Assembly (NCBI GenBank): GCA_008694505.1
Contig: VZDJ01007755.1
Span: 13,101,100-13,165,099, forward strand
From: Cyanoderma ruficeps
Lineage: Eukaryota > Chordata > Aves > Passeriformes > Timaliidae
Length of the DNA stretch: 64,000 nt
Direction of reading: 5' to 3'
The notes under the pieces are model-generated. The model was not told where the DNA came from. It ran no database searches and saw nothing but the letters and a program-made list of their open reading frames with translations. Of the stretch, positions 1 to 45,200 are shown in pieces. Within the stretch, counting starts at the first letter, position 1. Every line of letters begins with the position of its first letter. A program made the position numbers and the translations under genes.

Positions 1-2104
1 TATTAGAAATTTTGAAATAACCATAGGTCAGCTAACAGTTTAGCCTCATGGAATTCCTTGTGGTTTGTATTGGCCTCAACAAACAGGCAGTTTTGTTTGA
101 TTTGAAGATACTCTCAGTGTTATCTAAAGCCCTAATACTGGTTTGAAACCATACATCTTTGAACACCAACCCATTTAGGGTTCCAGGAGCAATATTGAAT
201 GCTGTCTCTCAGACATGTCCCTTTTTTGAAATGCCTTGCTGCGAAATAAGTTTTATAATACTAGGGGGTTGTTTTTTTTTGATTAGGTAGGTTGTCCACT
301 AATAACAGAGGTCCCAGTGCCTGATTTTGGTATCTAAAGACCACTGTCTTGTGTTCTAGCTGCCTAATTTTTTTTGAACATATTTTATTCAAACTGCATG
401 CAGATAAAAATAATGCCATTGTGTAGTGCATTACTTAGGATTTGTTTTTTTATGTAGCTTAGAAAATAAAGTATAGAATACCATTCATATCTTACAAGAT
501 GCTCTGTAGTCAGTTATCAAAAGTTTTATATCCATTCAGTTGTCTATTTTATTCTTTGTCATAGATAGATCATTGGTAGATAAATGGTCGTTTCTCTAAT
601 AAGCTTTTTCAGATAGTACCAAAGGCATCTTTGATTGAGAATATTTGTTACAGGACCTCTTGCTAGCACTCAATTATTTACAAATTATCAAGGTGAGAGA
701 GGTTGATTTAGTATTAGCATGACTTTTGCTTACTTTATCTTGAGGTTATTTTGCTCCTTGTTTCAAATGTTAAATGTGTTTTTAAGACTTCAGTCAACAT
801 CCAGCTGTTATGAATAACTTTATATATAGAGTCTCTAAGCTCAGAAATGAAGATAATCGAACTGAACACTCTTACTGGAAAATTTCACACATTTACAGCG
901 ATAGAATATGTGTGAAATTGTCTTCTCACTTGAAGGTGTGAGGCAATTTAAGCAGGACAACATGAATAGATTGTTTTTCCCACATTGTACAAGTATGTGT
1001 GGCCTTCACTGTACCAATATTTTTCAAGGACATGTGAGAGCAGTGTTGCTTGTGGCAGCCCACTGCTCTGTAACACCGAAAAGCCATATGAGCAGTTTCT
1101 TCTGGAACTTCTAGAAATGCATCTGAGTCTGGGATTTCACTGTTGAAGTTCCTGGGCTATGCCAGCTTTAGCCCTTAAGAGCACTTTCTCACTATTTAAG
1201 GTGGAATAGACTGTTAGCATACCTGGAAAGGTCTCAGGTGAGATTTTGCAATCATCATGAGGAGCTAAGTGTAGAAGTGGAATATTGCTTGGTGAATAAA
1301 GAATGCTCATTCTGTGTATCCCCTAACAATTTTTCCAATTTCATTTCAGACTACGCTTTAAGTAAAAATTGCTTTTTATTTTTTAAAGTGTTAATGTATA
1401 CTAAAATAGCAGGCAATTTAAAAAAGTAATCAGCATTTTAAATTCTACTATTATGTTTTTTAAAAGACATGGCAATATTTATATATCTGGAGATTCTTTT
1501 TTGTTATTTGAAGTGTGATTGCTTCTCTGTGGGGGAGAAGCTGAGAAAGCCAAAAGAGAAAAATTGGGGATATATCTAAGTCCTTTATCTTGAAGTAAAG
1601 AAGGCTATCAAATATGATGTGGTATATGTTCAAAACAGTTTATTTTTAAAACTGTGGTGTTGTAAGAAATGAAAGTCCATCTAGAAAGACAGAAAATGGC
1701 CAATAAAGGTAGGATTCTCAACCAGAGTCTTGGTTTCAAAATGTGAGAGTCTGATTCTTCTGGTAACAATGCAGCAGTTCATTGGTGGGTGCTTAAAGGT
1801 AATATAGACCTTTGCAACGAAATTAAAGAGAAGTGAATGAGAGTAATGAGAGAGTAAATGAATTAAAGGATACCTTAAAATACTTTGTTGTGTTCATAGG
1901 AATTATAAAGCATTATAAAACCATTTTGGTATTTGAAACTAGTAGTACATTTAAAAAATCTTCTGCAGCAAGTTAATTGTATGTTATCTTTTCTCTGAGC
2001 AAAATAGACATCTCACTTTAGAGAATGTGGGACTGATCTTTCAACTATTTGGCCTCTTTCCATTGACTTTTCCATCTTGCACTCATTATTGTAGTGTGAC
2101 TTAC
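1..2104 (-). other. Part of intron 2 of the second transthyretin gene (runs off left edge)
   Basis: This AT-rich stretch follows the 5' splice site at the end of exon 2 of the second transthyretin gene. Reading the minus strand, I found no segment resembling transthyretin exon 3 (the [10 protein letters not shown] region) or exon 4, and no repeat I can name. Intron 2 of the neighbouring complete gene is 4167 bp, so absence of exon 3 within 2104 bp is not evidence that the gene is broken. Confidence 0.6.
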
Positions 2105-2235
2105 TTTGAATTTAACAGTTCCCAAGATCCATCTGCAGCTTCTTTATATAATTTAACTGGAACATTTTGAGCTGGACTTCCTCGGACTGAATCCACAACT
2201 TTTACATAAAGAGGATGCTTGGCATCAAAAGGGTT
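2105..2235 (-). CDS. TTR-like: Second transthyretin gene, coding exon 2
   Basis: The acceptor is a pyrimidine tract ending TTGCAG before AAC CCT TTT. The exon then encodes NPFDAKHPLYVKVVDSVRGS and PAQNVPVKLYKEAADGSWEL, then LNS plus two bases of a Lys codon; the donor is AAA|GTAAGT. Relative to human TTR numbering it has His at 10, Tyr at 13, Lys at 15, Val at 17, Pro at 29 and Trp at 41. The mature N-terminal segment before the conserved PL-VKV core is three residues shorter than in the complete copy. Confidence 0.9.
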
Positions 2236-3980
2236 CTGCAATAGGAAGAGAAAAATTTATGTTGCAAGAAGGGTAAGTGACAGTCCATCAGAAAGCAGTA
2301 AGGAATACTATTCTTCAGATCTACAGTAGAGACCCTATTTTCCATGAGACAATTGCTGTGTATTGAGGAAGCATAATCTGAAACTTTCTGGGGGCTGGAT
2401 ATGGTGGAGTCAGGAAGGAAGATCTCAGGAGCTGTTGGGCATGTAGCCATGTACACCAGGGAGGCACTGCAGCTGTGAGACCACATTTCTATTTTTAATG
2501 TGGCGTGGCTTAGCTGCACATCATGTCCAGCATGAAGTCGTAACTAAATTGTGGCCTCAACAGGAAATAATTACATCCTCAAATGTAGTAGGAATGTTTA
2601 AAAATCTGCCAACCCTTCCTCTGTATTTTGGACTGAAACACATCCTCTGATACCTTGTTGCCATAGAGTTATCTCTGTTGCCACAGAGTTCCAGTTCTGC
2701 TGTAGACAAGATAAGCACCACTCCCTCCTAATAGCATATTGAATCACATTTGTCAACCCTGGAAGCTACACAAGGACAGGAGACAAAAACCTTCTTTCAA
2801 ATACAGGATGGCTATGGTTTCGTCCCAACATATTCATCACAAGTAGTGGTTATGACCTGATGTTTTACCTTTTCAAAAATAGAGTTGAATCAGGGCTTTG
2901 ACCCTACCTAAGTCTGCAGATGAAGACTGAGAAAATAGAGCTTTGTAGAAGATGCTAATCAGCAATGATCTCAAAATAGAAGTCACTGATATCCATTTAA
3001 TCATTGTAAAATGAATTGTGACGTAGACGGTGAAAAACTAAGAGCCCTCTCTTTCATGCCCTCTTGCAATCTGGAATGTTCCAGGGGCCAGGAGCCATGT
3101 CTAGTATCACACAAATGTATCAGGATGTGTCTATACTGCCTGTATGCCCAGATTCCTCATGTTCCCTTTCTGGAATCCACGGCTCCTCACTGGTTTTATT
3201 TGTGAGGCCTTGGCAAGAAGGGCTGCGCTGCTACTGCTGATTTTCCTGACTTTTACACCCTGGGGCCTCAATGAAAGGCTCATTCCTCGACAATGTTAGT
3301 TAATATTATTTTCCCAAAGATCACAGTTAAGAGGAAAAAATGACTAGTTGAGGAGAGAAAGACAAGGCTGCTTTAGGAGAATTTCAGGCTGAAGCATTTG
3401 AGTCTCTCCTGGGATAAATGAGCCCTCCAGAAGAAGGATCCTGGCTTTATATCTGTTCTTTACTTACATGGGATTAAGCTGTAGTGGGTAGAGCAGTAAG
3501 GCAGAAGTCTAGAAAAGGTCTTTCTCCAGCATGGATTTTGCAACAGGAGATGAAATTCGTCATGACACAGCTTGTTCATTATGTTATGAATGCTCAAGGT
3601 TTTTTGTCTGGTGAATATGATAGTTTTTCCTTTCTTGTTTTACATTGTTTTTCATGTAGTTTCTGTGTCTAATGATGAGTGCTACTTCTCTACCCATAAA
3701 GTCCTCTCACTAATCGTTAGAGAAGGAGAAAGAAGGACCAGAAAAGAGCAGCACCAGAGAACTGCAGTCAGTACATACCGTAAAATCAAAATCATCATTA
3801 TAATAATAAAATAATAGATTTTTTTTTTTTTTTGCTTACACTAATTAAAAATAATAGAAGAAAAAAACTGAGACTACATCAGTAGAAGGACTTCAGTCCT
3901 GAGACACTTACCGGTGGTGCAGCTTCAGAGCAAAGTGCCAGGCCAGCTAAGAAAACCAGAAATACAGAATGAAAAGCCAT
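2105..3980 (-). CDS. TTR-like: Second transthyretin-type gene, tandem paralogue; exons 1-2 only, continues off the left edge
   Basis: Two coding exons are visible: 3980-3912 and 2235-2105, separated by a 1676-bp intron with GT and AG ends. Exon 1 is 69 nt and ends in phase 0. Exon 2 is 131 nt and ends two bases into a codon. Both phases equal those of the complete TTR gene at 6193-13484. The predicted protein starts with a secretory signal peptide nearly the same as TTR's, followed by a transthyretin A-B strand region with the VRGSPA motif and a DGSW motif. It is therefore predicted to be a secreted tetrameric carrier-type protein. It lies about 2 kb downstream of TTR in the same direction, so it arose by tandem duplication. 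Only 23 of 41 aligned exon-2 residues match the first copy, so it is not an assembly duplicate. It has Lys at the position where 5-hydroxyisourate hydrolase has its catalytic His, so it is transthyretin-type rather than that enzyme. Exons 3 and 4 must lie beyond position 1; whether the gene is complete cannot be seen. Confidence 0.85.
2236..3911 (-). other. Intron 1 of second transthyretin gene
   Basis: This is a GT...AG intron of 1676 bp, about twice the 815 bp of intron 1 in the complete copy. It contains a short poly-T run (3820-3833 on the plus strand) and no recognisable gene or repeat family. Confidence 0.8.
3912..3980 (-). CDS. TTR-like: Second transthyretin gene, coding exon 1 (signal peptide)
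   Basis: The exon runs from ATG (3980-3978) for 23 codons: Met-Ala-Phe-His start, hydrophobic core VFLVFLAGLAL, then CSEAAPP. The donor is CCG|GTAAGT. It matches exon 1 of the complete copy (MAFQSV, VFLAGL, SEAAP shared) in length and phase. The ATG lies about 60 bp below a TATA box, which fixes the start. Confidence 0.92.
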
Positions 3981-4036
3981 TTTGCCTGCCACTAGAAAGT
4001 ATGTGTCAGCAAGCAGAAACTGGTGGGGGCTGTGAT

Positions 4037-4043
4037 TTTTATA
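4037..4043 (-). promoter_or_regulatory. TATA box of second transthyretin gene
   Basis: The minus strand reads TATAAAA, 63 bp above the ATG. The complete TTR copy has the same motif at the same spacing (64 bp). This predicts a 5' UTR of roughly 30 nt, as is usual for TTR. Confidence 0.8.
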
Positions 4044-4074
4044 TCAAGGCCTCCAAATTGAAACTACTTATCAG

Positions 4075-4165
4075 AATACCCCTATGACTCTCAACATGTA
4101 GATTCATACTATTTACTTAGTAAACAATGAGAAAATAAGTAACCCATACAAACATGAACCTTGTT
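4075..4165 (-). promoter_or_regulatory. Proximal promoter block with FOXA-like sites, second transthyretin gene
   Basis: The minus strand carries TTACTTATTTTCTCATTG followed by TGTTTACTAAGTAAATA. This includes the FOXA/HNF3-type cores TGTTTAC (plus 4120-4126 as GTAAACA) and TATTTAC (plus 4110-4116). The block aligns with the promoter of the complete TTR copy at 13581-13631 plus 13703-13740. As I recall it, the mammalian TTR proximal promoter has the same order of elements. Liver or choroid-plexus expression is inferred, not shown. Confidence 0.6.
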
Positions 4166-6192: not shown

Positions 6193-6300
6193 TTATTCCT
6201 TGGGATCAGTGACAACAGCAGTGGTTGAGTAGGAGAAAGGGCTGAGCAGAGCAGCGATGGTGTAGTGGCGGTGACCGGAATCATTAGCAGTGAACACCAC
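6193..6300 (-). CDS. TTR: TTR coding exon 4
   Basis: After TTTTCCAG the exon encodes [20 protein letters not shown] and [15 protein letters not shown], then TAA (6195-6193). Ala108, Ala109, Leu110, Ser117 and Thr119 line the hormone channel and are all present. Confidence 0.97.
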
Positions 6301-9300
6301 CTGGAAAAGAGGAAATTTGTGGTCATGATGAGCAAAAAACAGTCAAAGATACCTTATAAACAACTAAGCAGCACACCCCACTTCATCTGCAGAGCACTTT
6401 GCTGGTTCTGTTCAATGCTTTTACCCTTCTGGAGGGTATTGCTTCCTGTTACTTTGTGATTGCCAAGGACTGAGATATTTGTGAGATTTGGACTGAGCCT
6501 CAGCTGCGGTGAAGCTGGATGGAAATACCCACACCTGAACCAGGCAAACTGCTTTGTGATGTGGAATGGGAGGGTTTAGGGGGAGGTATCTCAAATAACC
6601 AGTAGGAAAGACAGGGGTGAAATTCCACCTAAGGAATTTAAATACAACCCCTGTGTAACTGTGTCCAAACAAGGCGGGCAGCTGGAACCCAAAGCTACTT
6701 TCTGTACTTCAGTGCCCCCTCCTGTTTTTAAAATTGACCCACTGGTGATGGGTCAGTTTTTGCATTAAGAACTGAGTGTCTAGACTTGCCAGAACAAGGA
6801 GAGACCCTCGCCCTAACACAGTTCAAATCTGCTGCTCTCCAAATCAGTGCAATGGGACTTGGGACACCCAATTCCCAGGAAAGTATCGTCACCTGGGTTA
6901 AATTCCAGCTTTCTTTAGCTTACTATTTATCTATTTTTAAAACCATGATGCACTTTCTATAGGTGGACTAGAGAGTTGTCTCCTACAACCAAAGTTTAAG
7001 CTGCTGGGACATGAGGACTGCAGGCTTCAGTTACCTTGTACACAGTCACTCACTGAATTCTACCCACTTCCCAGGCTAGTTTGTTGATCTGTAGCTATTC
7101 TATCAAGGAAAAGCTTCTTGAGCCTAGCTGGAACAGTCTCAGTCAGGCACTTTTAAGCACCTTCTGAGCCGTAGCCCTTGCAACTTTCAGACATCCAAAT
7201 GGTTAGGGAATACTTTTGAGTTTGTTTTTTTTTTTTTAACCTAAATCACCCAGACTGCACCCCAGACTTTTATGGACCTGGGATTCAGTCATTTGTTTTA
7301 GTCTTCCACAGAGCTCCATGAACTTGTAGTTCGAAATGTTCTATAATACTACCAATAGCTGTTCCAGACTACCTTAATTGGGAAAACTTAAATTTAGTGA
7401 CAGATTAAGCCTGAAAAATGTAAACATATTTTTGGATGTGCTAAGCAAATGTAGTAGAATGGAGCACACAACAAATCAGTGTAGGACTGAAAGCAAAGGG
7501 AGAGACAGGACATTATCATATTGCTGGCCTGCTTGTGAAATTTGAGTATCAATGAAATAGTAGTCTTTCTTTCCCACTATGGTTATTTCTTTGCTTTTAT
7601 ATATATATATATATTTAATTGCATGTTCTGGTACTGAACATCATTTTAAAAATAGAAGAAGAATTGGGTTTTTTTCCTGTAATTACGTGTCATATTAGAA
7701 TTCAGAGATTTTTATGTGACTAATATGGGGGAAATACCTCTGATTTAGGCATAGCTTATTTCCTATAAAATTAGGGTTTCCAAGTCTCTCCATTCCTTCA
7801 GCATCAGTAAAAGCAGTCTCTTTTTCTTGGTACATTTTTTTCTTGTTTGTTTTTATAAAACAGGCTACTTTTGAATAATGTAGCTCTTTTTGAGCAAGAT
7901 TCCCTACTGGTATGAGTGGGTGAATGGGCAGAGCTACATTTTGGAAGAGCTGTGTCAGCATTTGCAGGGAACTTGGCTGCTTCCTTTGGCTTAGCTGGAT
8001 ATTTATTTGCTTTATTTTCCCAGTGCTGTGTGGCAGTGAACCACTTCACTGATTGATGCTGCTCCTTCAGTATTAAAGGGCTTTGTTTGCTCTCTCCAGC
8101 TGATGCCACTACACAGGCAGTGTATACTGGTTATCAGGGATATTTGCCACTACTCACATCAGCGTATTCATGGAATGCAGAAAGCCCGAGCGCCTTCCAG
8201 TAAGAGCTGGTTTCAAACTTCACCATGTATTTTCCCTCTACAAACTGTTCTTCTGTCGTGAGCTCATGGATCTCCCCATACTCTGTGGTTTTCCTGTAAT
8301 GATTAAATATCTATATAAATATTTTTTACTGACATTTAGATGCTAAACAGAAGCAGTTAGTGTGGAATATTAAATAGCAGTGGTGCCAAATTCTATATTG
8401 AGCAGTTTCTAATAATCTGAAATTATTCCTTCCCTCTATGTAGTCTATGTTTCCATACGTTACAGAATCTATCCTTGCTGCCAACTCACCCATATACATC
8501 ACAAATCAAAGCTGCCTGGTTTAAGATCCCTCTTCTAGTATTGTTTAACTTGTACCAAATGTCCTCCGGAGCCAAAGATTACTGTCTTAGGAGAAGGATT
8601 GTCATGATGAGAGGCAAGATGCCAAATCTCAAAATAAAACTAAGGAGAGAAGAGAAATTTTATTGGAAAATTATTTTGTTCTCTAGTTATTAGCACTGAG
8701 GTTATGGAGTTTATTCCTATACACTGATGTGATTTTATGTGACCCTGAGTGGTAATGTCTTGGAAAAGCAATTTAGCATCACAAGATCTTAATAATTAGA
8801 ATTACAACGCCTTGGCCAAAGAGCAGGGGCGTCTTCTATTGGGTACCATATAAATGAGCAATAGGAATTCCCAGCTCAGAGCTTATGTGCTCAGTTTATA
8901 ACAAAAAACTGTGGAGGAAGAAACTCCAGCAGCAAGAAGGAAGTGTAGCTGTCACTGAGCCCTATTTGTTTGAAAAGCAGGCTTTTCAAGGTTTGTATGA
9001 CAGCTGTTTAAATATTTACATACTTAGCTCCTAAACCCCATTTATCTCTTTTCCCTCCTTTTACTTAGTTTCTGATTTTTTAACCTTTTGTGTTTGTTTG
9101 GTTTTGTTTGGGCATTTTTCTGCTGAAAATATTTATTTGATATTTACAGCACTTCATAATCACATAATGTAGTTGAAAGAATAATGAAGAAGCCTTGACT
9201 GGAAGAACTAGTGGAACAGTCCTGTCTTATGGCAAGGAGTAACTGCCTAGGCAGAAAACAAACTTGAGCAGGAGGAGAGGAAGTGGAGAATGCAGTGACA

Positions 9301-12300: not shown

Positions 12301-13484
12301 CACTTAAATCTAATGGATTTTAGATCAGAATTCATATGCTGTGAACACTGATAGTGTGTCAGAAAACATTTTTCTGTTTGATCAGACCTCCATTCCATCA
12401 GCTCTTCAACTGCTTGCCCAAGGCACCTTGAAAATGGGTCCAGAAGGCCATACAACTTACCCAACAGCAAAGTCCTGCCAGCTTCCATCTTCAGCCTGTT
12501 TAAAAACTTTAACAGTTACATCAGATGCAGGGCTTCCTCTGACTGCATCCAGCACTTTCACCATAAGAGGGCATTTGGAATCAACAGAGCCATGGGAGAC
12601 CTTGGGGAAAGGAGGAGAAGTTGTATAGGAACTGTTCACCAAGCCTGCAAAAATCTTCTCCCAAAGAAAAGATGTATTCTAATTGTAGCATTACCATTCA
12701 CTTAAAAGTAAGTTCTCTGACAAATGCTATTCAAAGCTGATTTCCAAACATCTATTTCTTAAGCAGAGTATCTTAGAACTTTATACTGGTAACTTTATTA
12801 CACACACACAGATTGCTTGATCGATATTTGGAGTTGCTCTAAATGGCTCTAGGAAAATGGTAAAATGTTACACCTTTCTAATGAGATCACAAATATGAAA
12901 ATAGTAAATTCTTGTAAGTGCAAAGTATGTTAACTAGGGAAACGAACAAAGAAATACATATGACATTCTAAGGCTGAAAGAATATCCCTCTCTTAGGCTT
13001 CATTACACTATACAGAATCCTTAGTCATACCTCAAAAATGGTTTTTAGTGCTTTAGAGAAGCACTTGTTTGGTGAAGCTGTCTCTTTATTGAGAATATCG
13101 GATGTGAGTCATGAACACATAGAAACAAAGGGAAAAAAACTCACACCACCCAGATCCCTTATCCTTCCATCTTCCATAATACCTTAAAATAGATGAATAA
13201 ATGGCAAAAAAAAAAAAAAAANNNNNNNNNNNNNNNNNAAAAAGAAAAAAAAAAAGTTTAAAGAATTCTGAAGATGCTACAATAAAAAATCCAGAAATGG
13301 CATTCTGGCAAAGCCCAACGGTTACAGAATTTCATGGATGAGGAGGATGCTAGTCATCCAGAAAATGTAGATTATCATTCTTATAATGATTGAGTTTGAG
13401 TACAAAGAAACTCACCAGTGGTGCAGCTTCAGAGAAAAATACCAGTCCAGCTAAGAAAACAACGAGCACAGACTGAAAGGCCAT
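6193..13484 (-). CDS. TTR: Transthyretin (TTR), complete, four coding exons
   Basis: Exons are 13484-13416, 12600-12461, 8293-8158 and 6300-6193. The coding length is 453 nt, or 150 residues plus stop, the length I recall for avian TTR. Transthyretin is a secreted homotetramer that carries thyroid hormones and binds retinol-binding protein; liver and choroid plexus are its main sites of synthesis. The sequence shows a 20-23 residue signal peptide, the extended avian N-terminus [43 protein letters not shown] and the C-terminal YSTTAVV. Human-numbered hormone-channel residues Met13, Lys15, Leu17, Glu54, Ala108, Ala109, Leu110, Ser117 and Thr119 are all present. Introns are 815, 4167 and 1857 bp with GT-AG ends. 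An upstream in-frame ATG (13598-13596) lies above the TATA box, so the start at 13484 is the right one. Confidence 0.97.
6301..8157 (-). other. TTR: TTR intron 3
   Basis: 1857-bp GT-AG intron. It contains a short (TA)n run near 7598-7615. No gene or repeat family recognised. Confidence 0.8.
8158..8293 (-). CDS. TTR: TTR coding exon 3
   Basis: 136 nt after ATTACAG. It completes Gly and then encodes [20 protein letters not shown] and [20 protein letters not shown], then HEYAD; donor GAT|GTGAGT. The length equals that of mammalian exon 3. Glu54 is kept. Confidence 0.97.
8294..12460 (-). other. TTR: TTR intron 2
   Basis: 4167-bp GT-AG intron, AT-rich. I see homopolymer runs (for example 10513-10524) but no exon, RNA gene or repeat family I can support. 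Confidence 0.8.
12461..12600 (-). CDS. TTR: TTR coding exon 2
   Basis: The acceptor CCCCAAG precedes GTC TCC CAT. The exon encodes [40 protein letters not shown] and WQDFAV, and ends two bases into a Gly codon at GG|GTAAGT. It is 140 nt. Cys10, Met13, Lys15 and Leu17 (human numbering) are present. Confidence 0.97.
12601..13415 (-). other. TTR: TTR intron 1 with an assembly gap
   Basis: 815-bp GT-AG intron. A poly-A tract from about 13206 is interrupted by 17 Ns (13222-13238), marking an unresolved homopolymer in the assembly. Confidence 0.85.
13416..13484 (-). CDS. TTR: TTR coding exon 1
   Basis: This exon has 23 codons encoding the signal peptide, from [20 protein letters not shown] to APL, with donor CTG|GTGAGT. 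It is phase 0 at its end. The ATG is 64 bp below the TATA box. Confidence 0.96.
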
Positions 13485-13541
13485 TCTGCTTGCTGTTAGT
13501 GAGCCTGGATGCCAGCAGCCAGGAGCTGAGGGGATTTGGGA

Positions 13542-13548
13542 TTTTATA
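13542..13548 (-). promoter_or_regulatory. TTR: TATA box of TTR
   Basis: The minus strand reads GGCTATAAAATCCC, 58-64 bp above the ATG. A CCAAT motif in inverted orientation sits immediately upstream (plus 13550-13554). Confidence 0.85.
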
Positions 13549-13580
13549 GCCAATCCACAACAAAACAGTCTGCTTATTGG

Positions 13581-13631
13581 GTGCCCATATGACTCCAAAA
13601 CTGCTGATTCTGATTATTTGCTTAGTAAATA
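13581..13631 (-). promoter_or_regulatory. TTR: Conserved TTR proximal promoter block
   Basis: The minus strand reads TATTTACTAAGCAAATAATC followed by AGAATCAGCAGTTTTGGAGT. From memory this closely matches the mammalian TTR proximal promoter (the AATAATCAGAATCAGCAG stretch), which binds HNF-family factors. TATTTAC (plus 13625-13631) is a FOXA-like core. The second gene has a diverged version. Confidence 0.7.
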
Positions 13632-13702
13632 GCCCAATCCTAGAGTCAGTTCATGAATAGCACTGCCATTGAAGTCAATGGAAAGACTGCAGGATCACTA
13701 GA
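13632..13702. repeat. About 70-bp insertion splitting the TTR proximal promoter, probably an old interspersed repeat
   Basis: The promoter of the second gene runs straight from the FOXA-like core into GAAAATAAGTAAC. In this copy the two parts are separated by about 70 bp containing CCATTGAAGTCAATGGAAAG. That motif resembles old amniote interspersed repeats with TTGAAGTCAATGG-type sequence; I cannot name the family. Confidence 0.45.
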
Positions 13703-13740
13703 GCAAAGAAAATAAGTAACGGACACAAACATGACCCTTG

Positions 13741-16700
13741 CCTGGGGAGATTACACTCATAGAAAGCCCTCCACAAAATGACCTTTGTTTGTCCAGAAAT
13801 CCAACCAGTTCTAGGAGATCTTCTTTATCTTGCCCTCAGGTTGTGCATAGCAATGCCCCAATGCTTTCTCTGCATCTGTCCCATGTTTCTTCTCAGTATA
13901 TTCGGTGCTCTCTGAGGATCAGATCTCACATAGGGATGCAGACTCACTATATGGGTGACAGTTTGTTCACTGGGTAGTTCGAGCAGTGCTGGAATCCCAG
14001 TCAGTCTCCCTGCTTGTTGGAAAGGAGCAATGTCTCTGTTTTGAGAGACAGCTTAGATGGGATCTGACACAATCTGCCACCCACCAGCAGTTTCTAATGA
14101 TTCATCTTGCCTAACCTTCAGGTAGACACTGAGGTCCCCTCTTAGTCACTGGGAAAAGACCTGTACAGGGCTGTTCCCTGGGAAGCTTGCACCATGTACC
14201 CCAGAAGGAGCCAAGGCAGCCAGCAAAAACTAGTAGCTTTTGTTAACATCTGGCTAAGGTACTAGTTGCCAAACCTTCATTATGCTGGGAATGTTATTTT
14301 TACATGTACATTTGTACATTTCTACATTTGTAAGTGTACAAATGTACATTTCAGGTTTTTTTCAGCTGGTTTTGTTCAGCTGCATCACATAAATTGTCTA
14401 TACTGTACCTTGTGGTAGTTGAAGGACAAAGAAACTGCCCTGTTTAGCAGTTCCTTTTCCCCATGCCCTAAACAACCCTGAGTCTACATTTTTCAGGAGC
14501 TGGCACTCATTTTTTACTTATTTCACAGTATTCTAACAAAAAGCAGTTTCCCCCCCTTAACTTGAATAGGATTATGATGAAGGTCTTAGAGAGAAATCAT
14601 GGATGGTATTCTCCAGAGACTTTCATGCCTTCAGGCTGCTTTTTGCAGTTTTTCTCTCTAGACAAAGTTGATTTTTGACAAAAAATCTATAATACAGTAA
14701 TCTCCTGCACTGGGATCAAAGTGCTCTTTGTCCTTACAGCAAAGCAGGCTGATACGTAGGTAACATTCTACACACACTTTGCCTGCACGTAAAAGTCAGT
14801 GCAAGGTGCCCAGTGGTAACAAACCATGCTGCAATCCAATGCCTGTGGGCTGTATCCAGATCTTGGAAAGTTAAATGCTGCTCCTAGATCTGTGCAACAA
14901 CATATTACTTCATTATTTTGTGCTCATTATTTGTGAATATTTCCCTGGAGCAATGAAGCTTTGTATGTCTGGAAGAGAAATTATCTGTATTCTAGGGCAA
15001 GTAGGCTGTCCTGTGTTTTGCTGTCAACTGTTCTGCAAGGAAATAATGGCAAGAAGTTAATTATATTGGCACTTGTCTGCATGAGAAATTGCTCTCCTTT
15101 GGGACAATTATTTTAAAAATAATGATTTTATTTTAGGTTTTCCTGCAAAGTACCAGTTTCTGAAAAATCAGGTCTACAAGAATAGTACATTTCAGCTGTC
15201 TGTATTATTTTGCTTCCCTCTTCTATAACACTGACCTTTTGGCAGCTGCTTCTTAGAGTGAATAATGAGCATGAAAAAAATTCTCACCCCAATATGATCT
15301 TTTTTGCCTTGTCCTTCATTTGCTGTTTTTCTCAACTCTCAACATCCCATACATAACCTAGACAGGGATTCTTTGACTACTAGCAGGGACACCAGTTTGA
15401 GTGGAAACTAGATTTTGTGTGTTTGTGAATCTCCATTCACAGATTTTGCACACAAATAGATTATTTCTATAAGTTCTAAGATACGGGTGGACTCAGTGAG
15501 AAGGTAAAAAAAAAATCTACTGTATCTCTGATCATGAAGCATCTAGAATTTATATAGAATTCTATTAAAATCTATGTGAACCTAATTTAAAATTACTACA
15601 GCCTAGTGAAAGCAAACCCTCCCTCTTCTATTGTCCTCTCAGGTAGATCCTCCCCCTTCTATTGTCAGCCTCAACTTAGTACCACAAAGTGGTAATATTT
15701 TCCATCAAATGTATGTGAAGGCTTAGGGATTTGGAACAGCTGACAGAGAAGGATGGTTCTCCCTTGGTAGGATGATTGTGGGAGGAAAAAGGAGAAAGAG
15801 GATGGGTAACTGCTGAGCATCCAAGGTGCTGATTGACTGTTGTCAATCCAAGATGCTGATTGACTATTGTCTGTCTGTTGTTAAACATTTTCTGTGCAAT
15901 GGGATTCTGAAACTTACATACTGAATAATTTATCCCAGATAAAAAATAAGAGAAAGTGAAATGAAAAGGGGCTGAGCTCTGAGATGTAAGTGAAGCTGGG
16001 AAACTCTGGGCTTTCTGAAGGAGGAGGGAAGCTGCCATGAAGAGCAGGAAAGTAGGCAGCTCCCAGGATACATGCCACAGGAAAATGGTGCAGCACAGAG
16101 CAGTAGCATAAATGCTCTTTTGTAAGAAAAGAGTAAACAGAGTCGCTGAAAACTCAACAGAAAGAGATATTTAGGAATCCCGGTGTGGAAGAAGCTGTAG
16201 GGTTACATAGCTAAAACAGAGACAATATGAGGATATACAGTGCAAGCATCTGGGATCTAGGGGACTCATGAAACTCAGAAGGGTTGCTCACGCAGCATAC
16301 AGGGTTATTAAGAGTGCTGGAGAAGAGAATGGCTCTGGTGTGCCCAGTAACCTCAGCTTTATGGAAGCAAACAACTGTGAGACCCCCAGTTATGGAAAAA
16401 TGTAGATAATCTTCAAATACGTGAATGTTTTGAGGCTTATCTGAATTTTAAATCAATTGAACTTCATCTCTGAAGAATTAGGATTAATGCCTATTTCTAA
16501 TTGAAAGTGTGTTCCCTGTTTGGAAGCATTACAGTGTTCAGGTCAAGAGCAAACATGTCCTGCTAATACTCTTGTTTATGTCAAGGATTTTTCCCACTAT
16601 GCTACAGCATTTTTCTCTCTCTTGTATGTAGTCTCACACACTTAGGCTTGTTTTACATAGATAAGCTCCTTATTCTCTGCTGCATTCCCTTTTATTTGAC

Positions 16701-35187: not shown

Positions 35188-36213
35188 CTATGAGCGAGTG
35201 TACTGCACTGTGCTGTATTTGGTGACCCTGGAAGACTTGCTCAGTGTGGCACTGGCAGGAGGTGGCCCTTGTAAATCAGAGCCCACCAGATTAAGTGGGG
35301 AGTCTGTGATCAGAGCATGCTCTTGCCTTCCTGAGCCGGCACCTGTTGCCTGCTCAGCTCTGCTCTGCAGCCCTGAGGCTGTCAGCACCCTTTCCTTCAC
35401 CACCGTGCTGCGCTCCTCTGTGGAAGCGGGGAAGCTGAGCGAGCCCTGCTCTGCAGCAGGCACAAGCACCCTCTCTCGCTCCCTCACCACCACGTACTGC
35501 GAGTCAGGAAGATCCTGAACTGTCAGGGCTCCCGGCCCTGCACCTGCCGACTTCACCATCCTTTCTTTAACCACCATGTTACCTCCGTGTGGCAAATCAG
35601 GGATTTTCACCATCCCCTGAAGGCTTGATGCAGGTGCCAGCACTCTCTCTGTCACCACTATGTTCTCCTTAAACTGGGGGTCTAAAAAGACAGGGGCTGA
35701 GTGGGCAGGAGCCCCCAGAGAATAGGATGTTTCTGTCACGGTGACATTGCTCTCCGTGTGGCCTGCGGGGAGGTGCTGGGCACTGTGCTGCCCAGAATGG
35801 GATGATGAAAAGGTTGTTTCTGTGACCACCTCCTTGGACAGGGTGCTTTCCCCTGTGCCACTGCCTGTGTGCACGGGTGGGATGGACTGGAAACCACTGC
35901 CTGAGGCAAAGGCTTGTTCAGAGGTGGAAGCATTTTGCTGATCTAAGAACTGTGACTTTGCTTCACTAGCACCAAAACCTGATTCATTCTTGTAGCCACC
36001 ATCTTTCAGGTTAATCTGTCTGCCTATACATATTTCTGCTAGAGTCTTAAACTTGTCTCCTAAATCATCAAGAAAACGGTCATCAAGATCCCCCTCAATG
36101 AAGCTGCAGCAGCCAACAGAGCCGTGAGGGGAGCCTGATTCTCCCTGGGAATAAACCAGGAGACAGTCTTTCGCAGCTTGCTCTTCATCTTCATCCGCGA
36201 AGGAGACAGCTTT
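35188..36213 (-). CDS. DSG2: DSG2 coding exon 15 (plakoglobin-binding region and desmoglein repeats)
   Basis: 1026 nt after CTGCAG. Starts [20 protein letters not shown], then [20 protein letters not shown] and [17 protein letters not shown], the conserved catenin-binding segment. About six repeat-unit domains follow (for example [50 protein letters not shown]), ending YSTVQYTRS and TAG (35190-35188). Confidence 0.95.
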   Translation of the reverse strand, partial: KAVSFADEDEEQAAKDCLLVYSQGESGSPHGSVGCCSFIEGDLDDRFLDDLGDKFKTLAEICIGRQINLKDGGYKNESGFGASEAKSQFLDQQNASTSEQAFASGSGFQSIPPVHTGSGTGESTLSKEVVTETTFSSSHSGQHSAQHLPAGHTESNVTVTETSYSLGAPAHSAPVFLDPQFKENIVVTERVLAPASSLQGMVKIPDLPHGGNMVVKERMVKSAGAGPGALTVQDLPDSQYVVVRERERVLVPAAEQGSLSFPASTEERSTVVKERVLTASGLQSRAEQATGAGSGRQEHALITDSPLNLVGSDLQGPPPASATLSKSSRVTKYSTVQYTRS

Positions 36214-39200
36214 CTGCAGAGAGAAAACAAAAGCAAGCAGAAGTTCATTAATGCCAGCTCTAGACTTAGTAATTTTGAAAAATCAGAAATGCTTGGACGA
36301 AAAGGTTGAAGTAAAAAATTTAACTGATCCCACAGAAACTGTCAACCAAGTGAGGGCTGTACCTAATATGTTTTTTTTTTCTTTTTTGAAATTAGTCTAA
36401 ACTTGACAGTAAATTTGATGAGAAGAAAAGTATGAGATTATATTTAAAATCTTGGATACCATCACCACCTGCTGCTGTTCCTTCCAGGAAATGTGCCATT
36501 TGTGATACTGCTCTATATTAATGAAGAAATTGTCTTAGTTTTAGTTCAGTGAGTGAACTTCACCTCCAACTAGGTTTTTGTGGGAGAATACCAAGACCAT
36601 TTCTGAGAGGATCCTAACATTTAAACAAACATTTATTGAGCACATGTTGACATGTTATCACCTACCATGGCCCTTTTCACTAATGCAGACTACAGGATCA
36701 CATCCAAGATGCCCAACAGGAAACAAATCAAAAAGTTAAATGGATTGGTAAAGCATGGATGCATAGTCCACCACGTAACTTCTTAGGCTCTCTGCAGACC
36801 ACCTGGCAACAAGGAGGGCTTACGAATTCTGGCTACAGTGCTTACAGGGTCAGCTCAATCGTAAACCAGCGTCTGCCATGGAGCTGCTGTGGAGATGGCA
36901 CAAATATCTCTGTATGTGTTTCCAAAAGCTCCAGTTCCAAAAGTGAAGACAGCCAAATCCTCTGGGCCTGCTGAACCAGCTTTATCTAATATTGCTCCTG
37001 GCTTGTGCCCAGAACCACCTTTCTGCCACATCTGCAGTTCTGGACTGCAAAATAGCTCACACATCTGCGTAATGCACTATATATCAAGACCCAATTTGAC
37101 TCTGCATTGTTTGTCTGCATATGATCCTGAAAGTAGACACATGACCCAAGATTCTGCCAAGAAAAATCAGCAGCTGAAAGTATTTGGTTTGGTTACTTGT
37201 CTGTCTCCTTACCCCTAATCTGAGATATTTTAGCCTCCCAGAAGTTGTATGGATACTGAGTATGGCTTCCTTCCTGCAGACTTCATCAGGCAGTTATGCT
37301 TAAAGTATGTCACAAAGAGTGGAAGAAAAGGAAGATACTCTCTCGCATCTGTTCACCCAGCAGACCAGTAGCTAGAGCACTCTGAGACATATAAGTACCT
37401 AAAGCTCAAATCCTTCCCTGGCCTGAGGTGGAGATTCGAACTTGCACAGCTACCCCCCTGCAAAACCACATCAGCTGCCAGCTGTAGGGTGTGAAGACAT
37501 TTTGCTTGTACAGATGATGGTGCATGGGAGTCAAACTTTCACTACAAGGAGCTCACCAGCCAAAGGACTAATGGTGTGTGTTACATGAAGGGAAATAGCT
37601 TCAACAAGTAGGAACAACCTACTGGCTAATGGTTAGGTCATTAAAAAAAAAGGAAGGGGATTGCAACATATGCCTCATACACTTTTGATGAATGGCCCTT
37701 TACCCAGGCTGCTGGGCAAACAGACAAGGCAGCACCACTTACTGCATCAGCTACTTTGAAAATACAGCCCCACCCACTGGTGTATGACATCTTCAGCTTA
37801 TCTTCCAAAAACCTGCTCCGTGGTAAAGTTTGGAGCTGTGACTCATGATGAGTCAGAGGTGCCTCCCTAGAGACCAGTTTCATGTTCTTAAGTCCCTGAG
37901 ATTTAGATCACACAGTCTTTCTCAGGGCTTTTTTCCCTGGAAAGGCGCTCCTTTGCTATTGCTGAGTATTCTGGATCCCATCCACAAATATCTTCCTTGA
38001 GAGAAAGGCCTATTTGTGTGATATCTTGCAAGCATTCAGTGCTAGAAGACTGAGTATCGTCACACTCCAAGTCCTGCATGTGTGGCTAATCCAAAAAACC
38101 TTAATGCCCCCAACTCCACATGCACAGTATCAGGACTGTTTATATCCACATATCTACTCACCTCTGTCTGTCATAACATGAACGATATTTCACAATGCTA
38201 AGTGTAAATATCAAAAAACTGTTCTTTTTGGGTCATATGCTTACATCATTGAAGTAGTCTCTTAAGAATTCTTCATTCATGGCTCCTGCTGCTCCCACAG
38301 CAACTCCTCCTCCAGACATGACTGTCTTGCCATCTACAGCTGCCATGCCTCCAGCTGCTCCAGCTGCCCCAGCTGCCATGGCTCCATAGTCAGCAGCAGA
38401 AAGAAGACGCCTTTGCTCTTCCCATCTTTCCCTGGTAATAGTGCTGTGATGTTCTCCTACATGAGAGGCAGAGCTGCCTGCTCCTATTAGAGCTTCTTCT
38501 CCACTCATTCCTGCTGCTGCTCCTGCCGCTGCTGCTGTTGTTCCTCCTTTCAAGTTCCCAAGTGCAGTGGGTGGAATGAAGCTCAGCACTGGCTACATAA
38601 ATAAGACAAATTAAGATGTGACATGAAAGCTTTGCTGTATAGCACAAGGAACTCACCAAACCAGCAGTAGGGCTGGGTGGGAACGGGGAGGGTGCTGTCT
38701 TACGACTTGTTTGAATTTGCACTTATACATGTTGCTGCAGAGTAAAAGGCTTCCTAACATAGGGTGCAACTTCCACAAATGTATTGCCAAGAAGGTTCAT
38801 GGAAATGTTTCTATAGATCATTGTTTTCTTGAAACTCAGAGGATTTAAAATGAAAAAAACCAACAAAAAAAATAAACCACAACAAAAAAGGCTTGCAAAA
38901 CTCCAGGGAACTTAGCTGTTCCAAGAAAAACTCTGTCCAGTTTTCCTCAGACACAAAGTGGGGAAGTATGCACTGTGGTGCTGCTTGGCCTTTTCTTTTT
39001 TCCTAGCAGTTTGGCTTCCTTGTTAATCATCTTTTAACAAGAATTTGGTGTGAGCATTGGCCTTAAATCAAAGTCTGTTACCTTGAATTTCTGTTATTGT
39101 GCAAAAGCATATCAGTGTCATGCCCTTTTTGAAAACCTTGTTTTGTAGCATAGCAACAAAGAGAAAATTTCTCTGGGCATTTGCTGTTCCCTCTGCAGAT

Positions 39201-42200
39201 TTGCACCTTTTTCTGCCCCCCCCCCNCCCCCTTTTTTTTCTTTATTTTTTTTTTTTACTAAGGAATTTCCTCTGTTTAAAAGAGAAAATACACAGGGAAG
39301 TAATTTAAAACAGTCTGAAACTTTAAACCAACCAAGGGAAGCTCAGCATTAAAACCCATTATTTTGCTGCCTTGTCATGCTCCCAAATGGACACAGAGCA
39401 TTCCAGGCTTGCAAACGCAAAAGTTTCACTCTCTATTGGTTCAGCACTTTTCCCGCAGTCCTATCTTCTGCTCAGATATGATCAACATTTGCTTGATTGC
39501 TTTCCCTATATTTGGAGATTTAAGTGCTATGGTTGCTTTTTCTACAGCTGCTGGCGGAAGTCATCTCCCACACATCCTTCGCTGAGCCTCACAGGGTTGA
39601 TTTTAATTAATGTTCATGTGTTGTTAAAATCGGTTGTAGAGATCTGAAATATCCACCTGTAGCGTGGAAGAGGCCTCAGGTGCCAAACTGAACACGGGGA
39701 TAGACATCAAAGGGAAGGGCTATTAGGGATACATGCCTTCTCCTCAGGAGCTGCTCCTTCACTGTTCCACTGACGCAACATTGCTTCACTGTAGTCTGGT
39801 ATTTGAGCAAATGTCTTTCCTCCACCAAATCCCTTTGCTCCCAAACCACCAGGACACAGCAGCAGTAACAGTGGAACAACTGTAGGGAAACAGAAGGTTG
39901 CCATTAACTGTGTGGTTATTAGGACCTTAGCATACTTACAGCCACTGTAAGTTTGCCCAGCTCCCATAACCAAATGTACTTTCAATGAGCTAGTGAGTAT
40001 GAGGGCTGGCAAGGACTGAAGAAAGGTTCCCAAATATTCAAGGCATCTCCTAGAAGTATATGCCAAGGCAAGCTTCCTAGAGAGCAAACTGACAACTAAC
40101 ACATCAGGGTGAGAATCCTGCAGACGGCCACACATGTATGTAGCTATACTTCTATCAAAGATCTCACATACCAGTTCCAATCCTGTACAACCTATCACTG
40201 TACAACCTCAGCATTTCTAAGTCCTCCTCTTCTTTTACTACTAGATAACAACATGGTGTAATGTACATTCCACCTCACCACTCCTTTGACATGCCTACAG
40301 TGTTGCCTTGGGGACTCAAAATAACCCAGTTTCAGAAGCAGAGAATATTATTCCTGTGGCATGGACTTTGTTTTATCACAGTTAGATTGCTGCCAGCACA
40401 AGCAATAAACTATTGGAAGTTTAAATGTAGCACTGCTACACCTGGCCACACCATAATTATAAATATTCTTATTTTTCTTTTATTTTATCTCACCAAAGAA
40501 CAATGTCACCTGCTGCTCTGAGCAAGGCAGTGAATCTGCAGTGACAGAAAAGAGAGTGGAGAATGTCCTGTGGTTTGAGTAGGAAGAGCTAGGGTTCACC
40601 TGGGGACATCTCAGAATACCAAAAGCATTCCTTGCTGCTTCCTCACTTGTTATTTACTGCACCATAAACAAATATTAAAAGTTGTTCATATTAATTTTAA
40701 AATGCACAGCTTGAAAACCTTTGAGGGTGAAATGCTGATATTACCAAAATTAGCTGGGGATCTGCCATGACTTCCCACAAAACTAGCAGTTTACACAGAA
40801 TGAATCAAGATGATAAGACCTGGGAGCTGGACTGCTGATGCTTTGCAGACCACATTTACAGTGCTTCTGAGATAACGTGAAACAATTACTTACGCAGCAG
40901 AAGTAAAAATGCCAAGATGATCAGTGCAACCGCTGCTGGTCCCAGACCCACCGACTTCCCGCCAACAAACTTCTCCTGGCACACGCCATTGTCTGCACAC
41001 TCACAAACAGTCAGCTCCAGAGACTGTGGCACAGCACAGCTGACCCCCTGGAAATCCTTTATTAGCATGGGAACTTCAGTTCTGCCTGGCTTCAGGTTTT
41101 GTGGTATCAGCTGTATGCTGGTGTCTGAGGCAGAAGTGGAGGGAGGTTAAAGAAAAAAAAAAAAAAAGACAAGAAGTGACCAGAGAGAAAATTGACTCCT
41201 GTAAACCAACTAAAATACAAATACAACTGTTACAGTCTTCCAACAATTCTCCTCCAGTTAAGCCCAGCCAATGCAATGGAATTAAGATTAATTAGCTGCT
41301 GCTACAGTATATGTGCTTTTGTTTTTATCAAATAATTCATGCTCACTTGCAGCCTCAGATAATTGTGAAATTTCACATGACCAGAGACTTAGCATGGAAG
41401 ACGGCCCAATCACCTGTACAGCATCAAACATGTCATCTGGATAGATACAGGGTGAACTCACAAAGAAACAGCTTCAGTCTTGAGGAGATTAATCTGCTGT
41501 AGGCCGCAGACAGACATCAGGAGCCAACAAAATATCTGTTCCTGTGGCTATGTCATGTCAAGGACTAACTAGGCAGAAGATCACAGAATGATTAAGGTAG
41601 GGAGGAACCACAGTGGGGCATCTGGCCCAACCTCCATGCTCAAGCAGGGTCATCCTAAAGCACATGGCACAGGATTGCATCCAGACAGTTCTCGAGTATC
41701 TCCAGTGAGAGAGACTCCACAACTTCTCAGGGCAATCTGTTCCATTGCATGGTCACTGCACAGTAAAGAAGTTCCTCCTCGTTTTCAGGTGGAAACTTCC
41801 TGTGCATCAGTTTCTGCCCACTGCCTCTTGTCCTATTGCTTGGCACCACCAAGAAAAGCCTGGCTCCACCCTCTTGGTACTCTTCCATCAGATACTGATA
41901 GACATTGATGAGGTCTCCTCTCAGTCATCTCTTCTCAAGGCTGAACAGGCCCAGCTCCCTCAGCCTGACCTTGTAAGAGAGATGCTCCAGCCCCTTAATT
42001 ATCTTTGTTGCCCGTTGCTGGATGCTCCAGGAATTCTGCGTCTCTCTTGTTCCAAGGAGGCAGAACTGGACACAGCACTCCAGATGTGGCCTCACCAGGG
42101 CACAGGAGACAGGCAGGATCACCTCCCTTGACCTGCTGGCAATGCTCTTCCCAATGCACTCCAGGACACCATGGACCTTTTGGCCACAAGGACACACCCC

Positions 42201-45200
42201 TGGCTCGTGGACAGCCTGTCACCTATGCCCAGATAATACACCACTGCGTTTTCCATGAGAAGATGGGGATAGCTTGATCCTAGCACTATTCATGAAATCC
42301 TGGTTACCACATATGAAGTAACAAGTCAGGCAAAGATGGTCCAACTGAGGGAAGACAACACACCCTAGAGGATATATCTGGACTTTTATAAACTTCAGAG
42401 AGAAGGGAGCAGAATGCAAATTATGGTCTTAATGCCTGACTCCATAAATAAGGTTGTTTTATTTGTCTTAGTCAGCCAAACTGTCAGTTTAACTAGAATT
42501 AATAAATTACGACCTTAGGACTTCAAAGAACTGAAAGTAATTAAAAATACATTTTCTTACCATTTCCAGATGCAATTATCCATTTTTCTGCTGTTCCTTC
42601 TGGTTCATCAATGACAGTAAAGCTGAAGGGATAACTGTTTGGGTAACCATCCAAATCATGAGCTGTAACATCAACTAATTTTGCATCCGAACACACAGTC
42701 TGCACAGGGTTCACAATAACTGGGCAGTTATCATTCTCATCTTTAACTTGAATGACAACTGTGCCAGTGATTGTTTTCCTTGGGGAATCTAAGATTTTAA
42801 AACATGAAAAATAAAATTGATTTGTGCACAAAAAATTATCTTAAAGTAAGAAAACAACTTAGTATTTTCCAAAACAGCAACATTGCTGAAGTAAGTTGAA
42901 AGAGATCTCCCTGGAGCTTATGAGAGCAGTGCTTAATTCCAAGTGTTAATAAATATATTGACTAAATTCTTCTGAAGGCAAGCTGTGTTATTACTTTAAC
43001 TTGAAAAAAAAATCCTGTATGGTTACACAGTAACATGCAGGTTATAAATGAAGAATTCTACTTAGATACAAAAGAAGTTCAGAGAGTCCTTCTTGCTTAG
43101 AAGTCAAGAAAACGTGGAACTATGAAGTCTGATGATAGGCATATTGAGATACCAGCAATTCCCACCTTGACAAGAGTTTCCTATCAAACCTATCTTTGAA
43201 AACTTTTATTAAAAGATCACCTCCATCTAGTCAAAGGGGAGAAACAGACACCTTGGGAACCCATTCCAAAAAATCAGTTGCCTGCATCTCTCCTTTGAAT
43301 AACGAGACTGCACTTGGTGCCTAACTTTAGAGACAGGCAGGTTAAACCAACTACCCTTGTAGACAGGCAAACAAACCAATTTGTGTGAAAACAAAACCCT
43401 CTCAACTTACCAGTAGTTACACCCAACATGGTGATAGTGTAGGTACCATTTACTACATGACGGGATTCATAATCAAGATTTTTAGCAAGTCGGATTTCGC
43501 CTGTGACTGAGTCTACAGTGATCCAGTTTGCTGCATCTTTTCCTTTCATGTATCTGATGAAAATCACACAATGATGGACACATTTATTAAACAGGAAAAC
43601 AACCATCATAGAAAAAGCAGCTTCATAGGAGGTTTATTCGTCATTTAAAACAGAGATCAAATCCCTAAGTCTGAGGCCTGATGCTCCTGCCACTGTAACT
43701 GGTTACAACTGTAAACATACCCTGAATGTTGAGAACTGCTTTTCCCTCTAGATCAAAGATTTAGGTATGGCTGCATTACAGAAAATACAATCAGGGAGCA
43801 AGACTGGAACAGGAGATGGAGCTGCACTGCCTGGCACTGTCCTCTTCCCCTGAGGAAGCATTAGACACTCACGAAAACCTGTATTCCAGGCATGGGGGAA
43901 AGGGGTCCATCCCTGGGTGTGCAACTCTGCTGTGCACCATTTGTAAAGGCCACGGTGGTGGTTAAATAACATTCTAGCTGAAAAGCTGTGATTCAAAACC
44001 CAAGCACACACATGCAGACGTATCTGTGTTACACCCTTTCTGTCTGACTGATAAACGCTCCTGCATATTACTTCCTAATTTTACTGGAGACAATGGAATC
44101 AGATTGGTAAATCTAATCTCAGAAGCAGACAGGTAGGACAAACACATCATGCAAACAGACAACTTCAGCCCAAACACTCATGTCTTGCCATATACAACAA
44201 AAGTAGGAGGATTTTCATCACTTGTTTTCTGCATAATAGAATATTGAAGACCATGATGGTGTTTTAGGTGTGAATTATCCTTAGCAGAAAATTATTTGAA
44301 ATTATTTCAGTTCAACATGCAAACTTTGACAATAAGACATGACTTCTGACATACTCAGTTATGATGGTTATAAAAAAAATTCTTACGTAATGTGCTCTGC
44401 TATTTTTCCAGTGTCTTCATCATAGGCTTGATACTGTCCAATAACCTGCTTTATCTGCAGTTTCTCACTTGCTTCAATAATTTTTGTGCCACCAGGGAAC
44501 ACGGGGCCTTCCCGCACATTGATCACCTTTATTTTGATTGGAATTGTTTTTGCTCTGTAATTGTGTTTAATTGACTTGTGGAACTCTGCTTTGTTTGTAA
44601 CAACAATACCCAAGTTTAGGCTTTGCATTTTTTCATAATCCAGCTCCTAGACCAATAAAGAATATAATAAAAAAAATTTCAGAATTTGTCAGAATCCGAT
44701 ATCTAGAAAACACGCATACATTTAATATTTAAATAATACTACAGCATCCTTATTTAAGTAATAAGGATGCAGATATTTAAGTAATATTTAAGCAGCAAGG
44801 ATATTACAGTGCAAGAAAGTTTCTTAACCTGTTACTCTCGCTCATTTTTAATGGATGACACCATAGATATGGCTTTCCATTACTGAATTAAACTGATTTA
44901 AGGTATGTGAAAGGAGTCCTACCCATATATTCTGCCTGTGCTTTCAGTGAATGAGTCCTCAGTTACTTGGCTGGCTCCTCCAAATTTATGTGCTTACTTT
45001 TTATTTTTTTCACCAAATCATTCACTTAATAAAGCTCATTTTTTTTTTTTTAATAATTAGCAGTTTTCAGATAAGGAAACTCGAGCAGGAAAAAAAAAAA
45101 GCTGCGAAAGGCACAATGCATCTTCAGTACTTGTGGACTAAAGAAAAGTGAAAATTTTAAAATAGACATTTCCATTAATGGAAAATAATTTCATCATCAT

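Follow-up and report, generated by a model that had tools for sequence, protein, structure and literature searches.

A second transthyretin (TTR)-type gene lies on the minus strand next to the TTR gene of Cyanoderma ruficeps. TTR carries thyroid hormone in blood and cerebrospinal fluid. The second gene begins 2.2 kb past the stop codon of TTR and has the same orientation, which bears out the tandem placement about 2 kb downstream that had been noted from the sequence alone. The best reading is that the paralogue is an old tandem duplicate that has probably been mostly under purifying selection. We assign a probability of roughly 0.6 to the view that it encodes a second liver-type secreted carrier with a TTR fold, homotetrameric or mixed with TTR, and with an altered ligand preference.

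Gene structure and genomic setting

The window, the whole 64-kb stretch of DNA that was analyzed, covers bases 13,101,100-13,165,099 of contig C480 (64.1 Mb). Exons 3 and 4 of the paralogue fall outside the window, to the left of its first base, and share contig and strand with exons 1 and 2. The exons and introns are as follows.

Paralogue exon 1: 3912..3980, minus strand, 69 nt; ATG at 3980; putative signal peptide MAFHSVFLVFLAGLALCSEA (by similarity to TTR) and first mature residues APP
Paralogue intron 1: 2236..3911, minus strand, 1676 nt, phase 0, GT-AG
Paralogue exon 2: 2105..2235, minus strand, 131 nt; acceptor TATTGCAG/AAC, donor AAA/GTAAGT
Paralogue intron 2, part in the window: 1..2104, minus strand; 2571 nt in total
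Paralogue exon 3: C480:13100632-13100497, minus strand, 136 nt; 467-602 bases left of coordinate 0
Paralogue exon 4: C480:13098771-13098664, minus strand, 108 nt, with TAG stop; 2328-2435 bases left of coordinate 0
TTR exon 1: 13416..13484, minus strand, 69 nt
TTR exon 2: 12461..12600, minus strand, 140 nt
TTR exon 3: 8158..8293, minus strand, 136 nt
TTR exon 4: 6193..6300, minus strand, 108 nt, with stop

The coding exons of the paralogue total 444 nt (69/131/136/108) and translate into 147 aa, free of stops and frameshifts. All six intron ends follow the GT-AG rule (exon 1 has the donor CCG/GTAAGT), phases 0 and 2 are those of TTR, and the third intron is in the same position as in the window TTR. 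An AATAAA is found 183 nt past the stop, compared with 146 nt in TTR, and an ATTAAA precedes it. The sequence-only reading had described a TATA box, a signal-peptide exon and an exon 2 with GT-AG sites and phases 0 and 2, all of which were recovered here (exons 3980-3912 and 2235-2105). A search for exons 3 and 4 had been set beforehand as a check. Both are present left of the window, open, and have the lengths and phases of the corresponding TTR exons. The left flank is identical to the window across a 4401-base overlap and has an N count of 0.

The resemblance to TTR (chicken 1tfp, human 4ank) extends to the signal-peptide exon, the four exons and their phases, the PF00576 domain, residues 115-122, and the order of promoter motifs. 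The lengths of exons 3 and 4 are identical to those of the window TTR. With four exons, conserved intron positions and a putative secretion signal in exon 1, assigned by similarity to TTR, the paralogue appears to have the makeup of a TTR gene proper. The 3' end of its intron 1 sits three codons deeper in the gene than that of the neighboring TTR. Exon 2 starts three codons later than the neighbor's, and the N-terminus is three residues shorter than in the window and chicken TTRs. This later start gives the paralogue an N-terminus of mammalian length. In a review of TTR evolution, shortening of the N-terminus by a splice shift is described as having accompanied a change in preference from T3 to T4 (PMC4324301).

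The neighboring TTR encodes 150 aa and is identical to chicken TTR at 103 of 119 positions and to human TTR at 88 of 119 (from position 9 on). Upstream of it, open reading frames of the cadherin family occupy 35191-45814 on the minus strand; one matches PF01049, another matches PF00028 below the cut-off, and a third is without a match. Downstream, and convergent to the TTR pair, three exons match Glyco_transf_7 families, and a PDB search with one of them returned galactosyltransferases 1 and 7 only. We take these flanks to be desmoglein and B4GALT6, from the known gene order of the TTR interval. TTR intron 1 has a 17-N run (13222-13238) in T-rich surroundings, and single Ns occur at 39226 and 59301.

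Divergence, selection and promoter

The paralogue and the neighboring TTR are identical at 89 of 147 residues, and at 73 of 121 from residue 27 on. In exon 2, the 23 matching residues counted earlier stand, over 43 aligned codons and not the 41 originally given. The paralogue aligns with human TTR 4ank without gaps over 147/147 residues. Both proteins match PF00576 well above the gathering cut-off of 25.3 (paralogue 77.9 bits, E 1.1e-21; TTR 79.5 bits, E 3.6e-22). When all six frames of the 1.025-Gb genome were searched with the TTR protein, nine candidates were scored and seven matches obtained, all on C480. These are the four TTR exons and paralogue exons 2, 3 and 4 (E 3.0e-7, 3.7e-9 and 4.3e-8); exon 1 of the paralogue is absent among the seven matches listed. 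As judged by similarity to the TTR protein, this search shows only these two putative TTR-type genes. A genome search with the PF00576 profile (eight candidates scored) found only a HIUase-like gene on contig C37. This profile search missed both known TTR genes and is thus too insensitive for excluding further copies.

Comparison of the two loci by blastn (same strand, E <= 0.1) identified five similar stretches, which are an HNF4/HNF1 block, the promoter with exon 1 (E 6e-22), and exons 2, 3 and 4 (E 2e-15 to 6e-9). At these E values, the resemblance of the two genes far exceeds what chance would give. No similarity was detected in the introns or the compared flanks under these settings. Differences between the coding sequences fall unevenly on codon positions 1, 2 and 3 (44/28/68 over 147 codons; chi-square p 0.0002). 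The part that starts at residue 27 has a dN of 0.31 and a dS of 1.37 (whole gene 0.30 and 1.03). Bootstrapping of the same part gave a median omega of 0.23 (95% 0.11-0.39, dS 0.82-2.50; 290 usable of 300 resamples), a pairwise mean over both genes that is compatible with a late loss of function. Since dS varies by exon (0.37, 0.87, 1.34, 1.94), omega is imprecise. Had one copy drifted freely since the duplication, a pairwise omega nearer 0.5 or above would be expected. When neutral drift by substitutions only was simulated, 11%, 4.6%, 2.8% and 1.9% of copies stayed stop-free at 0.2, 0.3, 0.4 and 0.5 substitutions per site. By itself, this simulation favors selection on the paralogue in a suggestive, not decisive, manner.

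At shared four-fold sites, 25 of 50 differ, which corresponds to a Jukes-Cantor distance of 0.82. The substitution rate in birds is near 2e-9 per site per year. Taken together, these values would place the duplication roughly 200 million years ago, with a wide error. Exon 1 is less diverged (11/66 nt) than exons 2-4 (129/375; p 0.004), with p 0.065 for third positions alone. The lower divergence also takes in the adjoining promoter (13406-13629 in TTR and 3902-4124 in the paralogue). Constraint, gene conversion or chance are possible reasons for the exon 1 difference.

The proximal promoters contain the same motifs, which are named by resemblance. The sites are numbered from an inferred transcription start site (TSS), set 30 nt past the beginning of the TATA box.

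Paralogue proximal promoter: 4034..4165, minus strand
HNF4-like site of the paralogue: 4165-4149, minus strand, -152/-136 from the inferred TSS
HNF1-like site of the paralogue: 4144-4130, minus strand, -131/-117
FOXA-like site of the paralogue: 4127-4109, minus strand, -114/-96
TATA box of the paralogue: starts at 4043, minus strand, -30
TTR proximal promoter, same motifs: 13539..13742, minus strand

When the 400 nt upstream of each gene are compared, the highest-scoring local alignment reaches 48, and the maximum among 1968 random window pieces is 29. In a TTR promoter map from the literature, taken here as mammalian, HNF-4 lies at -151/-140, HNF-1 at -137/-109, HNF-3 at -106/-91 and -140/-128, and TATA at -30; the map also has two C/EBP sites (PMC1464811). 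Our comparison covers HNF-4, HNF-1, the HNF-3 site at -106, and TATA. The liver-type promoter proposed earlier is supported at the motif level, with HNF4-, HNF1- and FOXA-like motifs and TATA near the positions given for these sites in the map. The distance from the HNF4/HNF1 block down to the inferred start is 72 nt longer in the window TTR than in the paralogue. Because of this difference, it is the duplicate, not the main gene, that appears to keep the published spacing. The TTR promoter has about 72 extra nt between the HNF1-like and FOXA-like sites (13631-13706), which are missing from the paralogue and from the spacing in the map.

The binding pocket and the relation to HIUase

From residue 9 on, 85 positions are identical in human, chicken and window TTR, and 23 of them are changed in the paralogue. 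A published list of halogen-binding pocket residues comprises Lys15, Leu17, Thr106, Val121, Ala108, Ala109, Leu110, Ser117 and Thr119 (PMC9405911). Five of these nine are changed in the paralogue (L17V, T106K, A108V, A109V, L110V), and Lys15, Ser117, Thr119 and Val121 are retained. Compared with the other invariant sites (18 of 76 changed), the excess in the pocket is borderline (one-sided p 0.056). Sea bream TTR departs from the list at two of the nine positions. The paralogue also carries E54G, proline for His56 and tyrosine for Met13, and Cys10, the only mature cysteine, is replaced by histidine. Glu54 is a hormone contact. The five changed pocket residues and Glu54 are all identical in human, chicken and window TTR. 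In or near the pocket, the paralogue thus differs from TTR at positions 17, 54, 106, 108, 109 and 110, and the conserved thyroid hormone pocket is not found in it (five of nine residues changed, together with Glu54 to Gly). The four retained pocket residues would still permit some thyroid hormone binding, as far as can be predicted from the protein sequence. The net charge (K+R-D-E) is -3, compared with -7 for the neighboring TTR.

Residues 115-122, which we take to lie at the subunit interface, are unchanged, and the C-terminus reads SYSTTAVV with Thr119 kept. A Tyr-to-Thr change at the C-terminus, from the YRGS of HIUase to TTR, is called decisive in the review of TTR evolution (PMC4324301). 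With zebrafish HIUase (2h1x), the paralogue shares the Pfam family and few residues, of which H56P, E61K and E66A fall in one stretch. It differs in having K, G and K at human TTR positions 15, 54 and 106, where zebrafish HIUase has H, R and H; these positions have a catalytic role in HIUase. It also differs in its TTR-type signal peptide and in ending in TTAVV instead of YRGS. On the NCBIfam equivalog TIGR02962, the paralogue scores 76.1 bits and the window TTR 76.3, both under the cut-off of 87.45. K15, G54, K106, TTAVV and the sub-cut-off TIGR02962 score rule out the paralogue as an HIUase.

The sequence-only reading had placed HIUase elsewhere in the genome, and a gene with an HIUase signature is indeed located on a different contig.

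Separate HIUase-like gene: C37:973418-974101; at least three open exons; HVLN, GRC and YTTYRGS motifs, a stop, then AATAAA

As side context to this gene, the urate oxidase gene is said to be non-functional in birds (PMC3646786). Nematode transthyretin-like (TTL) proteins, compared by partial descriptions alone, resemble the paralogue in name only. Searches of the 147-aa protein against prokaryote and viral collections returned 33 and 3 pattern matches and no relative; these are non-vertebrate sets and uninformative on birds.

Alternative explanations and significance

An assembly artefact or allelic duplicate is the explanation with the least to recommend it. The 17-N run in TTR intron 1 could be cited in its favor, yet identity is only 89/147, the introns share no similarity, and both genes lie on one 64-Mb contig with zero Ns between them. 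The probability of an artefact is negligible, divergence excludes it, and the earlier judgment to the same effect is upheld. A recently silenced copy that still looks intact is quite improbable. Current use of the gene is not demonstrable from sequence alone, which leaves room for a young pseudogene; against it, every exon is free of stops, frameshifts and broken splice sites, the promoter is conserved and the introns are not. The proportion of simulated copies that stay stop-free (2.8% at 0.4 substitutions per site, 11% at 0.2) is counted before indels and splice sites are considered. Highly improbable, in our estimation, is a pre-amniote or early vertebrate TTR/HIUase intermediate that was kept here and lost in mammals. 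Among six tree positions compared, the best-scoring one has the paralogue branching outside the TTRs of human, chicken and sea bream. Two weaker measures, bp-RELL and c-ELW, disfavor the position beside the bird TTRs, and bp-RELL also disfavors that beside sea bream. The mature part matches chicken TTR at 77 of 119 positions, yet human and chicken TTR match at 93 of 119. Five of the 23 changed invariant sites have the zebrafish HIUase residue (V32L, F44L, H56P, E61K, E66A), by either convergence or ancient retention. However, each of the six positions is compatible with the KH, SH and AU tests, and an unconstrained tree of the same sequences wrongly groups chicken and sea bream together, which indicates that the data are too short for placement. 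Identity of the paralogue to HIUase (38/112) is no higher than that of TTR (40/112). At 18 sites where chicken and window TTR differ from human TTR, it has the bird residue at nine and the human residue at three, and its exon 1 is nearer to the window TTR than the remaining exons are.

A closer competitor is that the paralogue is a functional second TTR with an ordinary role as a T4-preferring thyroid hormone distributor, serving in a different tissue or stage, or within mixed tetramers. Such a role would fit the retention of Lys15, Ser117, Thr119, Val121 and residues 115-122, as well as the liver-type promoter motifs. It would also fit an N-terminus as short as that of human TTR, since short N-termini accompany T4 preference (PMC4324301). 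We nevertheless consider it unlikely, given the altered pocket, where Glu54 and five of the nine listed residues are changed at positions invariant in human, chicken and window TTR. In the human protein, Glu54 to Lys is reported as narrowing the pocket (PMC9405911), though the paralogue has Gly instead. A108V in human TTR stabilizes tetramers without raising T4 affinity.

The preferred reading, a secreted TTR-fold carrier with an altered ligand preference, would have arisen as follows. The whole TTR gene, promoter and four exons, was probably duplicated in tandem long ago between the cadherin (desmoglein) and B4GALT genes. The duplicate appears to have remained protein-coding, with purifying selection through most of its history. 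It may be transcribed in hepatocytes, and perhaps in choroid plexus, through HNF4, HNF1 and FOXA. The product would be secreted as a homotetramer of the TTR fold or mixed with TTR, the tetramer and the signal peptide both being predicted from similarity, and its cargo may be a ligand other than the classical T3 type. With Glu54 lost and Lys106 gained, the outer pocket should be more positive, and valines at 108, 109 and 110 would alter the inner pocket. The short N-terminus has the length that, in other TTRs, is tied to a preference for T4 over T3. A bolder proposal, held tentatively and with less than even odds, is that birds or all sauropsids have kept a second TTR subtype for about 200 million years. 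With a rebuilt, more basic pocket and an N-terminus of mammalian length, it might be an unrecognized carrier of a non-T3 ligand in plasma or cerebrospinal fluid.

In the open-access titles and abstract openings that were searched, no second vertebrate TTR gene is indicated. Some bird genomes may already give the gene an automatic 'transthyretin-like' label. The available part of the review of TTR evolution describes one TTR gene, with change running through the N-terminus; that part mentions HIUase duplicates and no second TTR gene (PMC4324301). If a second subtype has been long kept, TTR is not a single-gene system in amniotes. A duplicate with altered N-terminal length and pocket beside an ancestral sister would be a natural experiment on the binding of T3, T4 and other ligands, and would bear on studies of how thyroid hormone is transported in the plasma or brain of such birds. 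The natural A108V, which stabilizes the tetramer of human TTR, and the missing Cys10 could interest amyloid research.
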